Assembly (NCBI GenBank): GCA_022843465.1
Contig: JALHNO010000002.1
Coordinates: 124,001-188,000 of the forward strand
From: Pseudomonadota bacterium
Lineage (GTDB): Bacteria; Pseudomonadota; Gammaproteobacteria; Xanthomonadales; Ahniellaceae
Direction: 5' to 3'
Length of the DNA: 64,000 nucleotides
The notes under the pieces were generated by a model, which was given only the letters and a program-made list of their open reading frames with translations, searched no databases and was not told the origin of the DNA. Of the stretch, positions 11,589-17,248 are shown one piece after another. The position numbers were made by a program, and so were the translations under genes. Within the stretch, counting starts at the first letter, position 1. Every line of letters begins with the position of its first letter.

Positions 11589-12431
11589 ATGTGTCCGAGC
11601 AAGGTCCCTGACGGGGAAGAGCGTGGCTGGATCGTCCCGATCGGCGGCGCAGAAGAAAAAGAAGACAATCCGAGCATCCTGCAACGTTTCGTTCGTGTCT
11701 GCGGTGGCAGCAATGCCAATATCGTGATCGTGCCGACCGCCAGCCGACTGGCCGATACCGGGCCCCGTTATGAGCGCATCTTCCGCGAGTTGGGTGCCGC
11801 GGAGGCCGTGTCCGTTGATTTTGAATCGCGCTCGGATGGCGACGATGCCCGCAAGCTGGGTCAGCTCAAGCGGGCGACCGGCATCTTCCTCACCGGCGGC
11901 AATCAGCTTCGGATTACCACCCTGCTTGGCGGCACCGATGCGGCGCGGGTGATCCGCGCGCAGAATGCCAACGGCGTGCACGTGGCGGGGACCAGTGCCG
12001 GCGCCAGTGTGCTGAGCGAACACATGATAGCTTTCGGCGACGAGGGATCGTCGGCGCTGGCCGGCAGCGTGCGGCTGGCGCCGGGCCTGGGCCTGACCAA
12101 TCGCTTCATCATCGACCAGCATTTTCGTCAGCGCGATCGCCTGGGCAGGCTGGTCACGGCCCTCGCCTATAACCCGTTTGCAATCGGGATCGGTCTGGAC
12201 GAGGACACCGCTGCCTTCATCGCGCCGGACAACACCCTGGAGGTCGAGGGCAGCGGCGGCGTCACCGTCGTCGATGCCGCCGGCCTGCAGTTCTCATCGA
12301 TGGACAGCATCGACGAGGGGCAGCCGGTCTGTCTGCTGGGATTGACCGTCCATATGCTGGTTGCGGGCGCCACCTTCAATTTGCATACTCGGGTTGCCCA
12401 GGCCAATAGCTTGCTCAGCCGCAAGACCTGA
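11589..12431 (+). CDS. cphB: Cyanophycinase
   Basis: 280 residues of the serine peptidase S51 family. Cyanophycinase hydrolyses the storage polymer multi-L-arginyl-poly-L-aspartate to beta-Asp-Arg dipeptides. The family features are an IVPIGGAEEK start, the IVIVPTASR strand, FLTGGNQLR, and the nucleophile elbow GTSAGA with Ser136, close to the Ser132 of cyanobacterial CphB. An AGGTG five bases ahead of the ATG supports the start. It lies 77 bp before cphA on the same strand, so synthesis and breakdown are encoded together. No isoaspartyl dipeptidase gene for the next step is in the window. Confidence 0.92.
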   Translation: MCPSKVPDGEERGWIVPIGGAEEKEDNPSILQRFVRVCGGSNANIVIVPTASRLADTGPRYERIFRELGAAEAVSVDFESRSDGDDARKLGQLKRATGIFLTGGNQLRITTLLGGTDAARVIRAQNANGVHVAGTSAGASVLSEHMIAFGDEGSSALAGSVRLAPGLGLTNRFIIDQHFRQRDRLGRLVTALAYNPFAIGIGLDEDTAAFIAPDNTLEVEGSGGVTVVDAAGLQFSSMDSIDEGQPVCLLGLTVHMLVAGATFNLHTRVAQANSLLSRKT

Positions 12432-12508: not shown

Positions 12509-15298
12509 ATGCGCATTCTCGATCGTGCGGTTTATGTCGGACCGTCCCTTTATGCGCATTTTCCGGTCATCCGGCTGGAGCTCGATCTGGGCGAACTGGA
12601 GCAATGGCCAACGTCCAAGCTCGGTCCAGCATTCGTCGATGGCCTGGTCGCGGCTCTGCCTGGGCTGGCCGAACATGGCTGCTCGTATCGGACGCCGGGC
12701 GGGCTCATTCGCAGAATGACCGAGGATGAAGGGACCTGGCTCGGCCATGTGCTCGAACATGTCGCCATCGAAGTGCAGAATGTCGCCGGCGAAGATGTCA
12801 GTTTCGGCAAGACCCGCAGTACCGACAAACCCGGCGTCTACTCGGTGGTCTACGAGTACGCACAGAAGGAAGAGGGCATCGAAGCCGGCGAACTGTCGAT
12901 GCGACTGCTGTGCTCGCTGCTGCCGGAGTCGCTGCGGCCGGCCGGCATCGTCCCCGAGGACTGGGACTGGATCACGGCGCGTGACGAGTTCATCCGTTTC
13001 GCCCAGCGGCGGGCACTGGGGCCTTCCACGGCCTCCCTGGTGCGTGCCGCCGAGGCACGCGGGATCCCCTGGTTCCGCCTGAATGATCAGTCGCTGGTGC
13101 AGTTGGGCCAGGGCAAGTTCCAGCAGCGGATCCAGGCCACGATCACCGGACGCACCTCGCATATTGCGGTGGAGCTGGCCAGCGACAAGGAAGAAACCAA
13201 CAAGATTCTGGGTGCGCTCGGTCTGCCGGTGCCGCGGCAGGAACTGGTGCAGAGTGAGTCGCAGGCCCTGCGCGCCGCGCGCCGCATAGGCTATCCGGTG
13301 GTGACCAAACCCTACAACGGCAATCATGGTCGCGGCATTTCGATCCGTTTGTTGAACGAGGAAGAAGTCGCTGCCGGATTCCGCAAGGCGCAGGAGATCT
13401 CGCGCTCGGTGATTGTCGAGACCTATCTTGAAGGCGATGATCATCGCTTGCTGGTCGTCAATGGCGAACTGGTGGCGGCGACGCGGCGCACGCCGGGTCA
13501 CGTCGTCGGCGATGGCAGCCGCAGCATTGCGGAACTGGTCGAGATCGTGAACCAGGATCCGCGCCGCGGTGTCGGCCACGAAAAGGTGCTGACACGCCTG
13601 CAACTCGATGCCCAGGCCGAGATGATGATGACGCGAGCGGGTCACAGCGCGGAGTCAGTTCCGGCTGCCGGTGAAGTGGTGTATCTGCGCTCGACGGCGA
13701 ATCTCTCGACTGGCGGCACGGCGACTGATGTCACCGACATCATCCATCCCGACAACCGGGAAATGGCGGTGCGTGCGATCCGTGCCATCGGGCTTGATGT
13801 CGGCGGCGTGGATTTTCTGTCGACCAATATCGCCGAGAGTTATCGCAAGATCGGCGGTGGTATCTGCGAGGTCAATGCTGCCCCTGGCTTCCGCATGCAT
13901 GTGGCGCCGAGCGAAGGCACGCCGCGCGATGTCGCGGCGCCGGTGATTGACATGCTGTTCCCGCAGGGGGCGCCGACCCGGGTGCCGATCGCGGCCATCA
14001 CCGGCACCAATGGCAAGACCACCACGGCGCGCATGCTGGCGCACATCACCAAGATGGCCGGCTACACCCCGGGCCTGACCACTACCGATGGCGTCTACAT
14101 CGATGGTCAGCGCACGGTCGAAGGCGATATGACCGGGCCGGTTTCGGCGCGCATGGTGCTGTCCGATCCGCAGATCGATCTGGCCGTGCTGGAGACGGCG
14201 CGTGGTGGTCTGCTGCGCGCCGGCATGGGGGTACGCAATGTCAATGTCGGTGCCGTGCTGAACGTGCAGTCCGACCATCTGGGTCTGAAGGGCATCGACA
14301 CGCTTGAACAGCTGGCCGAGCTCAAGCGCATCGTGATCGAGGTCGCCGAGGATTGCGCGGTACTCAATGCCGATGATCCGCAGGTATTGCGGATGTCCGG
14401 CTACACCGATGCCAGGGTGATCTGTTACGTCACGCTCAATCCCTCGCATGGACTGGTGCGCGAGCATATCCGTGCCGGCGGCCGTGCCTGCGCGCTCGAG
14501 GCGGGCGTCAATGGCCACATGATCACGCTGTATGACAAGGGCAGTCATATCCCCTTGCTGTGGACACATCTGATCCCGGCGACGCTCGAGGGCAGGGCCC
14601 TGCACAATGTGCAGAACGCGATGTTCGCGGCCGCCATCGCCTATTCGCTGGGCGTCAAACTCGATGCCATCCGCCAGGGACTGCGCACCTTCGACACCAC
14701 ATTCTTCCAGGCACCCGGCCGGATGAACGTGTTCAACGAGCATCCGTTCAAGGTGCTGTTCGACTACGGCCATAATGCGCATGCGGTCAATGCGATGGCC
14801 GATCTCGCCCAGCGCCTGGATGCGAGTGGCCGCAGGATCGTGGTGCTGGCCGGGCCAGGCGATCGCCGTGACGAGGATCTGGTTGCGATCGCTGATGCCG
14901 TGGCCGGGCGTTTCGATCACTACATCTGCCGCCGCGATGATGGCCTGCGTGGTCGCGATGGTGATGAGGTGCCAAAAATCCAGTCGCGTGCGCTGATGGC
15001 GAAGGGCGTCGACAAGGACGCGATCTCGATCATTCCCGACGAGCAGGAAGCCATCGATGCGGCCCTGCGCATGGGGCGACCGGGAGACCTGCTGCTGATC
15101 TTCGCGGATGCTCTGGTGCGTTCCTGGAAGCAGGTCATCAAGTTCCGTCCCGAGGGCAGTGTCGCGCCGATATCGCGACCGGTCTCCGCCGATGTGGTGT
15201 TGCCGACGGCCAGTGCCGAGGACCTGTCCCTGCTCAATATGGAAGGCATGGTGCGTGACGAACGTGGTATCCATTTTTCGCGGGAATCGGAAGACTAG
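12509..15298 (+). CDS. cphA: Cyanophycin synthetase
   Basis: 929 residues. CphA1 enzymes alternately add Asp to the backbone and Arg to the side chains, using two ATP-dependent active sites. The order is as in the family: an N-terminal domain (1-160), an ATP-grasp domain (about 197-480, with KPYNGNHGRGIS and the YRKIGGGICEVNAAPG strand), and a Mur-ligase-like domain with P-loop GTNGKT at about 499-504, ETARGGLLRAGMG and QSDHLGLKG. Nothing essential appears missing, so both activities are expected. An ordinary start with AAGGAGC eight bases ahead is seen. About 35 extra C-terminal residues extend beyond many homologues. Confidence 0.94.
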   Translation: MRILDRAVYVGPSLYAHFPVIRLELDLGELEQWPTSKLGPAFVDGLVAALPGLAEHGCSYRTPGGLIRRMTEDEGTWLGHVLEHVAIEVQNVAGEDVSFGKTRSTDKPGVYSVVYEYAQKEEGIEAGELSMRLLCSLLPESLRPAGIVPEDWDWITARDEFIRFAQRRALGPSTASLVRAAEARGIPWFRLNDQSLVQLGQGKFQQRIQATITGRTSHIAVELASDKEETNKILGALGLPVPRQELVQSESQALRAARRIGYPVVTKPYNGNHGRGISIRLLNEEEVAAGFRKAQEISRSVIVETYLEGDDHRLLVVNGELVAATRRTPGHVVGDGSRSIAELVEIVNQDPRRGVGHEKVLTRLQLDAQAEMMMTRAGHSAESVPAAGEVVYLRSTANLSTGGTATDVTDIIHPDNREMAVRAIRAIGLDVGGVDFLSTNIAESYRKIGGGICEVNAAPGFRMHVAPSEGTPRDVAAPVIDMLFPQGAPTRVPIAAITGTNGKTTTARMLAHITKMAGYTPGLTTTDGVYIDGQRTVEGDMTGPVSARMVLSDPQIDLAVLETARGGLLRAGMGVRNVNVGAVLNVQSDHLGLKGIDTLEQLAELKRIVIEVAEDCAVLNADDPQVLRMSGYTDARVICYVTLNPSHGLVREHIRAGGRACALEAGVNGHMITLYDKGSHIPLLWTHLIPATLEGRALHNVQNAMFAAAIAYSLGVKLDAIRQGLRTFDTTFFQAPGRMNVFNEHPFKVLFDYGHNAHAVNAMADLAQRLDASGRRIVVLAGPGDRRDEDLVAIADAVAGRFDHYICRRDDGLRGRDGDEVPKIQSRALMAKGVDKDAISIIPDEQEAIDAALRMGRPGDLLLIFADALVRSWKQVIKFRPEGSVAPISRPVSADVVLPTASAEDLSLLNMEGMVRDERGIHFSRESED

Positions 15299-15372: not shown

Positions 15373-15437
15373 GGCAAGGCCGTGCCCGCTACGCTAGGCT
15401 ACCGCTCCGCTCGTGGGCCTTCCCGCGCTGCCTTGCC
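15373..15437. repeat. Palindromic GC-rich element between cphA and the CphA-like gene
   Basis: Arms GGCAAGGC (15373-15380) and GCCTTGCC (15430-15437) enclose a core of short, repeated CGCTACGCTAGGCTAC-type words with further GCCC/GGGC pairing. The style resembles the small dispersed repeats common in Xanthomonadales genomes. The GTG at 15413 used as the start of the next gene lies inside it. Whether it is repeated elsewhere in this genome cannot be seen here. Confidence 0.45.
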
Positions 15438-17248
15438 TGTGGGCGGCTAGCTTGTTTCCGGCGGCTCCCTCATTCGCGGATTCGCGTCGTCTGACCGGAC
15501 CGAACCGTCACTTCGCGGTGCCCGCTGCGGTGCTCGAGGGGTTGGCGGGACCCGATCTGGACGATGGCTTGCCGGCGCGCTGGCGGCACGATGTCGAGCT
15601 TGCTGCGCGGCATCTGGGCTGGGCGGCGCCGCGCACCGATGTCCGCCGCAATCCGGCGGGCGCATTGTTCGCGATGACGGCACCGGCTGATCAGCTGTAC
15701 ACCGCAACCGAAGTCAACGAGTGGGCATGGCAACGGGCAAGCCGGCATGACGATGGCTTTCATGCGCCAGGCTACGCGGCAATCCGGGATGAGGCGCTGG
15801 CACTGGAGACCTTGCGCCGCTATGCGGTCGCCGAGCGCAACCCACGCCTGCTGGCATTGCGCGCGGCGGCCGAGCGCATCAAGGTGCCCCTCCATGTCGA
15901 CGATGAAGTGGTGTCACTCGGTGAGGGACGTGGTCGGCTGATGTTCGCGGCCGACGCGCTTCCCGATCTGCAGACACTGGATTGGACTGGCCTGCATCGC
16001 ATTCCCAAGATCGCCGTGACCGGTTCCAACGGCAAGACCACGAGCGTGCGCCTGCTGGCACGGCTATGGCGCGCGGCTGGTCTGCGTACCGGCCACAGTT
16101 GCACCGATGGTCTCTATATTGACGGCCAGTTGATCGAGGCTGGCGATTTTTCCGGTCCGGCCGGCGCCCGCAGCATCTTGCGTCGCGAGGATGTCGAGGC
16201 CGCGGTGCTGGAGACTGCACGCGGCGGCATCCTGCGTCGTGGGCTCGGCCTCGGTCAGGCCGATGTCGCCCTGGTGACCAATGTCAGTGCGGATCACTTT
16301 GGCGAGTACGGGGTCTACAGTCTGGATGACCTCGCCGAGGTCAAGCTCAGCGTTGCCCACCTGATCGCTGACGACGGTGTTCTGGTATTGAACGCAGACG
16401 ATGATTCCCTGGTTCGACACGCCGCCAACCTGCACTGCCGGATTGCCTGGTTCGCACTCCGCGATGAGCATCCGATCCTGGAGGCCCATCGAAGTGCTGG
16501 CGGCGCCACTTGCGCAGTGCGCGAGGGTGAGCTCGTACTGAACGACGGCAGAGGGGAGTACGCCCTGGGGGCAGTCGCAGACATGCCGCTGAGTGTCGGT
16601 GGCATCGCCCGCTACAACATTGCCAACCTCGCGGGTGCCGCCCTGTGCGCGTTCCTCGCAGGCATTCCGCTCGCAGGACTTGCCGAAGTGCTGACGCACT
16701 TTGGCGCGAATCGCGAGGACAACAGCGGCCGCCTGCAGCGCTGGAACCTTGGCGGCATCGTGGTTCTGCTCGATTACGCGCACAACCCGGAAGGCCTCGA
16801 TGGTTTTCTGACAATCGCGCGGCATGCGCAGCACGGGCGCCTTGGTCTGCTGCTCGGGCAGGCCGGAAATCGCGATGACGCGGACGTGCGTCAACTCGCG
16901 ATCGTGGCGGCGCGGCATCGTCCGGATCGCATCGTGCTGAAGGACATCGCCGGCTACATGCGCGGACGCGTACCCGGAGAAATCGCCGAGATTCTGCGCG
17001 CTGCGCTGATTGCCGCAGACGTGTCGACTGACGCCTTGCTGACCTTGCTCGATGAAGTCGAGGCGGCGCGCAGCCTGTTGCAGTGGGCGCGTGCGGGTGA
17101 CGTGGTTGCCTTGCCGGTGCACGCAAGTGCAGCACGCAGCGCGCTCACCAGTCTGCTCAATCGAATGGAAGTCGAGCAATGGAATGCCGGTGAACCTGTG
17201 CCCGAGACCATTCGCCCGGCCGCCGGCTTGACGAACTGCGCGTCATGA
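15413..17248 (+). CDS. CphA-like Mur ligase family protein lacking the ATP-grasp domain
   Basis: 611 residues as framed. The C-terminal two thirds match the Mur-like domain of the adjacent CphA: P-loop GSNGKTT at about 204, CTDGLYIDGQ, ETARGGILRRGLG, SADHFGEYG, LAEVKL and LDYAHNPEG. The N-terminal part also seems related to the CphA N-domain (SRRLTGPN at the start; VSLGEGRGR at 167 resembles VQLGQGKFQ in CphA). About 265 residues forming the ATP-grasp domain are absent between these points. It probably ligates an amino acid to an acceptor, perhaps in cyanophycin metabolism, but the substrate is unknown. The GTG start lies in a palindrome and gives a false-looking signal peptide; TTG at 15452 is an alternative. 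It overlaps the next gene by 4 bp. Confidence 0.75.
   Translation: MGLPALPCLWAASLFPAAPSFADSRRLTGPNRHFAVPAAVLEGLAGPDLDDGLPARWRHDVELAARHLGWAAPRTDVRRNPAGALFAMTAPADQLYTATEVNEWAWQRASRHDDGFHAPGYAAIRDEALALETLRRYAVAERNPRLLALRAAAERIKVPLHVDDEVVSLGEGRGRLMFAADALPDLQTLDWTGLHRIPKIAVTGSNGKTTSVRLLARLWRAAGLRTGHSCTDGLYIDGQLIEAGDFSGPAGARSILRREDVEAAVLETARGGILRRGLGLGQADVALVTNVSADHFGEYGVYSLDDLAEVKLSVAHLIADDGVLVLNADDDSLVRHAANLHCRIAWFALRDEHPILEAHRSAGGATCAVREGELVLNDGRGEYALGAVADMPLSVGGIARYNIANLAGAALCAFLAGIPLAGLAEVLTHFGANREDNSGRLQRWNLGGIVVLLDYAHNPEGLDGFLTIARHAQHGRLGLLLGQAGNRDDADVRQLAIVAARHRPDRIVLKDIAGYMRGRVPGEIAEILRAALIAADVSTDALLTLLDEVEAARSLLQWARAGDVVALPVHASAARSALTSLLNRMEVEQWNAGEPVPETIRPAAGLTNCAS

Follow-up and report, generated by a model that had tools for sequence, protein, structure and literature searches.

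Cyanophycin synthetase 1 (CphA1; PDB 7LG5, 7LGQ, 7WAE), which makes cyanophycin, a nitrogen-storage polymer, is among the closest described relatives of the protein reported here. It consists of an N-domain, an ATP-grasp G domain and a Mur-type M domain, the limits of which in TeCphA1 are residues 1–161, 162–487 and 488–876, respectively (PMC9427784). The M domain works on the side chain of the C-terminal aspartate of the chain (PMC9262961, PMC9427784), and the N-domain carries a metallopeptidase motif, Cx19HxxEH (PMC9262961). Known CphA enzymes need an added primer or cut existing chains (PMC9262961). The shortest primer that CphA1 accepts is (beta-Asp-Arg)-Asp.

In a reduced relative, CphA2 (PDB 8FXH), the working site is the ATP-grasp domain. 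CphA2, which is found in cyanobacteria, polymerizes beta-Asp-Arg dipeptides with its one active site (PMC10206079), and its N-domain lacks the peptidase motif (PMC9262961).

Here we describe a clade of CphAs with a C-terminal tail that ends in an invariant aspartate and is linked to a second, shorter ligase. For the latter we coin the family name MURL, which denotes proteins with an SRRLTG start, a truncated N-domain, a CphA-type Mur domain and an adjoining tail-bearing CphA. The association is new here; no paper on the MURL gene or the CphA tail was found in the literature searched, and older CphA surveys may mention them.

Results and Discussion

The window analyzed is a 64,000 nt stretch of a Pseudomonadota contig. 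It contains a 611-aa frame on the plus strand (15413–17248), open from a GTG codon to the stop. Translation probably begins further downstream, with TTG 15452 the likelier codon, because family members begin 5–15 codons before the conserved SRRLTG and TTG 15452 is the nearest in-frame candidate. On this basis, and with a 58-member alignment, the MURL gene is placed at 15452–17248. Upstream, on the same strand, lie cphB (11589–12431), encoding a cyanophycinase of peptidase family S51 (TIGR02069, 246 bits; cut-off 126.6), and cphA (12509–15298), encoding a 929-aa cyanophycin synthetase 1 (TIGR02068, 1105.8 bits; cut-off 850) that the tree places in the tail-bearing clade. An earlier note on this DNA had placed the gene inside a cyanophycin cluster. 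The genes 3' of MURL resemble those for an rRNA methyltransferase and an RsuA-type pseudouridine synthase. Scanning the cluster for promoters and terminators yielded no signal above chance. The window protein shows all the features of the MURL family, its tail CphA neighbor included.

A Pfam search of MURL returned only Mur_ligase_M (residues 202–412) and Mur_ligase_C (439–566), with no match to an ATP-grasp domain or to the CphA N-domain, whereas the neighboring CphA matches a RimK-type ATP-grasp domain. The ATP-grasp domain is thus absent from this CphA relative, as had been proposed. The spacing given for it also holds, with about 35 residues between VSLGEG and the P-loop in MURL against about 300 in CphA. 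The proposed likeness of VSLGEGRGR to VQLGQGKFQ of CphA is real, since profile–profile comparison aligns N-region residues 99–152 with CphA 147–203 (P-value 1.9e-5). A start SRRLTGPN common to both proteins had been claimed as well, but the neighboring CphA reads RAVYVGPSLYA there, and the start alone scores no better than chance (probability 3%).

Structural models nevertheless show that the N-terminal fold is shared with CphA. The MURL N-domain, which opens with the conserved SRRLTG (15482–15946, plus strand), was modeled alone with AlphaFold2 (pLDDT 88.7). The ten best rows of a structure search with this model were all CphA1 or CphA2 (Z 8.0–10.1; the next, unrelated row 6.3), and the alignments covered about 145–150 of 157 residues against chain residues 2–201, with a best VIA-align Z of 10.1 over 150 residues; Foldseek gave E 4.6e-5. 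An unrelated N-terminal fold, which would have spoken against the earlier reading, is ruled out by these matches. The full-length AlphaFold2 model (pLDDT 94.5) superposes on Trichodesmium CphA1 over 403 residues (rmsd 3.2, Z 39.8), with model residues 1–411 on chain residues 4–723. Read against the TeCphA1 domain limits, the range of the structural match indicates that MURL retains the N-domain together with the beginning of the G region and lacks the remainder of the ATP-grasp domain. The junction at the site of that domain lies at 15947–16015 (plus strand).

Among 124 MURLs, the motif HxxEH was absent from all when the 200 residues before the P-loop were examined. Judged from these sequences, the MURL N-domain has lost the Cx19-21HxxEH metallopeptidase motif that is typical of most CphA1s. 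The tail-bearing CphAs keep it: Cx21HxxEH is present in 95 of the 95 that could be read; in another five, the pattern does not apply because the reading began too far upstream. The spacing of 21 in tail CphAs (the window protein at 12509–15298 included) differs from Cx19HxxEH in most other motif-bearing CphAs.

In five MURL genes (L042, L054, L062, L068 and L077), an in-frame DUF559 insert of about 170 aa follows the N-domain. In both members examined (L042 and L062), the insert is flanked by inverted repeats, of 27 and 46 nt. Reading the insert as a functional domain was set aside in view of these repeats; it is apparently a nested mobile element that has been kept in frame.

The Mur part of MURL comprises a core (Mur_ligase_M, 16016–16648), in which the P-loop TGSNGKTT, ETARGG, DH and the K602 equivalent are kept, and a lid (Mur_ligase_C, 16727–17110), in which DNxGR, DYAHN and RGR are kept, both on the plus strand. 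It matches positions 477–848 of the CphA model TIGR02068 at 1.2e-102, compared with 3e-28 for MurE and 1e-6 for FolC, and is 35% identical to the neighboring CphA. The scores stay below the family cut-offs, at 344.5 bits for TIGR02068 (cut-off 850) and 94.7 for the MurE model (cut-off 257.3).

We compared active sites across 106 MURLs, 94 tail CphAs and 49 other CphAs, using Synechocystis numbering. K499, T522, E558, R561, D585, H586, K602, N696, R731, D745, H748 and R805 are kept in 99–100% of the MURLs and R807 in 97%, which supports the complete Mur-like site described in the earlier note. Roles in CphA1 have been reported for K499, T522, E558, R731 and H748 (PMC9427784) and for D585 and H586 (PMC9262961). 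Two positions that contact cyanophycin in SuCphA1 (PMC9262961) have changed. E607, still Glu in 98% of tail CphAs, is R, K or H in 81% of MURLs, and S603 has mostly given way to Leu or Phe. Position 567 is Arg in 99% of MURLs. Residue 801, which is D or E in 92% of MURLs, coincides in position with the loop by which MurE selects its amino acid. With the catalytic residues kept, the changes at 607, 603 and 567 would fit an amino-acid ligase with an acidic acceptor and no arginine-rich chain. Loss of an acidic pair before RGR was also considered as a sign of a non-arginine substrate and was rejected, because CphA, too, does not generally have the second acid, and the first is retained.

A tree of 82 Mur domains, FolC not among them, groups the MURLs together as one clade (support 100) and apart from the tail-bearing CphA clade (support 99), with a support of 100 for the split between MurE and the CphA side, which includes MURL. 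The Mur part therefore groups with CphA rather than with MurE, and the FolC model scores far lower; a placement with MurE or FolC would have counted against the earlier reading. The further suggestion that MURL is a duplicate of the neighboring CphA does not survive the tree, which rules out a recent duplication of that gene. Across species, MURLs are 28–56% identical to the window MURL, and their linked CphAs are 57–88% identical to the window CphA. Both the lower identity and the position outside the neighbor's clade point to an old lineage, and on this phylogeny MURL is a single ancient paralogue family that branches deeply on the CphA side. The loss of HxxEH, the ancient and widespread family, and the partner CphA tail ending in aspartate go beyond what the earlier note had seen.

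MURL thus shares with CphA1 the N-domain fold, a full M domain, the catalytic residues and the side of the Mur tree, and differs from it in lacking the ATP-grasp G domain and HxxEH and in its altered polymer contacts. Like CphA2, it is a reduced CphA relative with one (in MURL, predicted) working ligase site and an N-domain without the peptidase motif; unlike CphA2, it keeps the Mur site instead of ATP-grasp and sits beside a full CphA1. Its description as the reverse of CphA2 is thus apt for the architecture and does not extend beyond it. MurE (UDP-MurNAc-tripeptide synthetase) has the same ligase fold and chemistry on a separate branch.

Two plasmid-encoded proteins have a similar architecture, with an N-domain and a Mur domain but no ATP-grasp domain: a 622-aa protein of Legionella adelaidensis (L130:8476-10344), encoded beside a cyanophycinase and an isoaspartyl peptidase, and a 724-aa CphA-like protein of Deinococcus deserti (L131:7026-9200). 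In contrast to MURL, both have a full N-domain with a Pfam match, form separate branches within CphA and have no adjoining tail CphA. They branch apart from MURL in the tree, and their losses of ATP-grasp are parallel ones. In a CphA-like protein encoded on a D. taeanensis plasmid (L132:6702-9218), the ATP-grasp domain is barely recognizable. At four loci without MURL (L119, L123, L126 and L127), tandem CphAs occur, a full one and a copy of 670–780 aa in which the Mur domain is shortened at the C-terminus, the opposite truncation to that of MURL.

MURL occurs in Lysobacterales, in other Gamma-, Beta- and Alphaproteobacteria and on some contigs labeled Holophagaceae, nearly always in the order cphB-cphA-MURL. 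In one scan of 80 loci, mostly from Lysobacterales with some from Beta- and other Gammaproteobacteria and from Holophagaceae-labeled contigs, this order was fixed wherever flanks were present, and Shinella and Ruegeria plasmids have the same order, with the MURL genes labeled "Mur ligase family protein" by NCBI. All 116 linked MURLs lie directly downstream of cphA on the same strand, with 21–287 nt from the cphA stop to SRRLTG. Within the family of the source organism (10 genomes), cphA and MURL are both found in six and neither in four at the threshold used. In a class-wide sample, 13 of 274 genomes passed the CphA cut-off; all six with a CphA at least 57% identical to that of the window carry MURL, compared with none of the seven in which CphA is 37–43% identical. 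In a phylum-wide sample of 398 genomes, five have MURL, each with an adjoining CphA, and 24 have CphA-type matches only. In one genome (G299), cphA and MURL are on different contigs and CphA still ends in aspartate. Another (G291, 99% complete) has MURL with no CphA detected, which reflects either an assembly gap or a true loss; this MURL (L149) adjoins a long minus-strand ORF resembling an ABC transporter.

The CphAs linked to MURL form one clade in the tree and have an additional C-terminal tail, a variable linker followed by a conserved tip, that is absent from CphAs not accompanied by MURL. In the window, the linker lies C-terminal of the Mur-like domain (15134–15253) and the tip, RDERGIHFSRESED, at 15254–15295, both on the plus strand. 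The tail measures 53–96 residues from SWKQ to the end, and its tip has no aligned counterpart in solved CphA1 chains. In a set of 22 plasmid records, the alignment reaches the end of the query (925–929) only in the four that have MURL; the remaining full-length CphAs stop at 867–896.

The last residue of the tail is aspartate without exception among 103 distinct tips, which were picked by the DERG motif alone with the last residue disregarded. Glu or Asp occupies position −4 in 102 of these, whereas D, E, S, A, N, G and T all occur at position −2, and the length from DERG to the C-terminus has a range of four residues. In the window, the residue is D929, encoded by GAC at 15293–15295 (plus strand) ahead of the stop TAG. 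Asp is the last residue in 118 of the 120 complete CphA entries linked to MURL (a set with some overlapping loci); the two others are an N-masked sequence (L006) and one in which the stop is lost right after ...AAEEAD (L146). Among 70 entries lacking MURL (again with some overlapping loci), just two have a terminal Asp; these are tail CphAs whose contigs break off before MURL would follow. Every tail CphA with a complete flank has MURL alongside.

A Shine–Dalgarno sequence or an overlap with the MURL start was considered as the cause of the terminal Asp. Both codons are used (GAC in 69 tips, GAT in 34), and all 13 cases with a cphA–MURL gap above 90 nt retain Asp, which rejects that origin and indicates that the constraint acts on the amino acid. 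Because the tail CphAs form one clade, the association with MURL represents, on the tree, a single evolutionary gain kept by descent and not a repeated origin. Its strength lies in long retention and in one invariant residue, and the genome collections determine which of these loci were sampled.

The M domain of CphA1 acts on the C-terminal Asp of its chain, which suggests the C-terminus of CphA itself as the MURL acceptor, and the sequence evidence points there; the cyanophycin side chains or other acceptors suggested in the earlier note would be the alternatives. We propose that MURL is an active ATP-dependent Mur-type ligase whose acceptor is the C-terminal Asp of the CphA tail, to which it adds an amino acid, probably Arg, creating an anchored primer; we give this reading a probability of roughly one in three. 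MURL would phosphorylate the side-chain carboxylate of the terminal Asp and couple an amino acid, most likely Arg, to the activated residue, as the CphA1 M domain does on the growing chain. The product, CphA-Asp(beta-Arg)-COOH, would match the chain end that the CphA G domain extends with Asp, and this addition would give an anchored (beta-Asp-Arg)-Asp, a tethered minimal primer from which CphA could extend a chain on its own tail. The N-domain metallopeptidase of CphA could then release the tail-anchored chain. A CphA ending in Glu-x-x-Asp is, unmodified, no minimal primer. What we infer is which acceptor and amino acid MURL uses and that it serves priming; the architecture, catalytic residues, co-occurrence, tail and invariant Asp are observed. 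The proposal would explain together why MURL has the Mur site alone, why the partnership is strict, why the tail ends in Asp and why the charge has changed. That MURL is an active ligase with a function dependent on the CphA tail seems probable on balance, while the fuller claim, that a dedicated Mur-type ligase modifies the C-terminal Asp and makes the polymerase its own covalent primer, is doubtful. Glycogenin starts its polymer on the protein itself. The likeness would be one of logic only, as enzyme and polymer are unrelated and a separate modifying enzyme is proposed for CphA.

Several observations weigh against priming on the tail. Tail CphAs may already produce primers by cleavage, since they keep Cx21HxxEH, and G291 has MURL with no CphA detected. 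Docking or self-regulation would be equally plausible roles for the invariant Asp. If it docks, the tip would recruit MURL to the CphA tetramer, where MURL would modify the cyanophycin chain by adding Arg, or for example Lys, to unfinished Asp, with effects on repair, rate or composition. Tethered docking motifs usually combine a variable linker and a conserved tip, as the tail does, the catalytic residues of MURL are kept, and two long helices in its N-domain (H32-47 and H71-89) are likely counterparts of the polymer-binding helices of CphA1 (PMC9262961). However, docking alone explains poorly why the final residue must be Asp while its neighbors vary, the polymer-contact Glu607 is mostly basic in MURLs and CphA already owns an intact M domain; we regard this reading as unlikely.

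A role independent of the tail is unlikely: MURL would use beta-Asp-Arg, free Asp or some other peptide with a terminal Asp, for instance to make a soluble primer or to recycle the dipeptides that CphB releases, and the tail would serve an unrelated purpose. This would suit the fixed position of MURL beside cphB and cphA, the G291 genome and the L. adelaidensis protein, beside which no cphA is annotated in the stretch read, although that protein is not a MURL by the tree and the strict co-occurrence with the tail and the invariant Asp would be left unexplained. The Asp might instead enter the M-domain acceptor site of its own or a neighboring CphA subunit, as a self-primer or self-inhibitor, with MURL only regulating or stabilizing CphA. 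The M domain does recognize a C-terminal Asp (PMC9262961), and tails of 53–96 residues are long enough to reach. Such self-use is improbable, as it explains neither why MURL keeps every catalytic residue nor why it lies beside every tail CphA with a complete flank.

Conclusions

In a large proteobacterial group, CphA has a tail with an invariant last residue and is accompanied by a second ligase, so that the origin of the first primer becomes directly testable. The family now named only "Mur ligase family protein" thereby gains a possible function, and cyanophycin production in other hosts could be affected if a cphA of the tail clade were moved without MURL. If the proposal of a tail-anchored primer is true, cyanophycin in these bacteria would be a self-primed polyamide, and its start would be a new kind of enzymatic modification of a protein C-terminus, on the side chain of aspartate.
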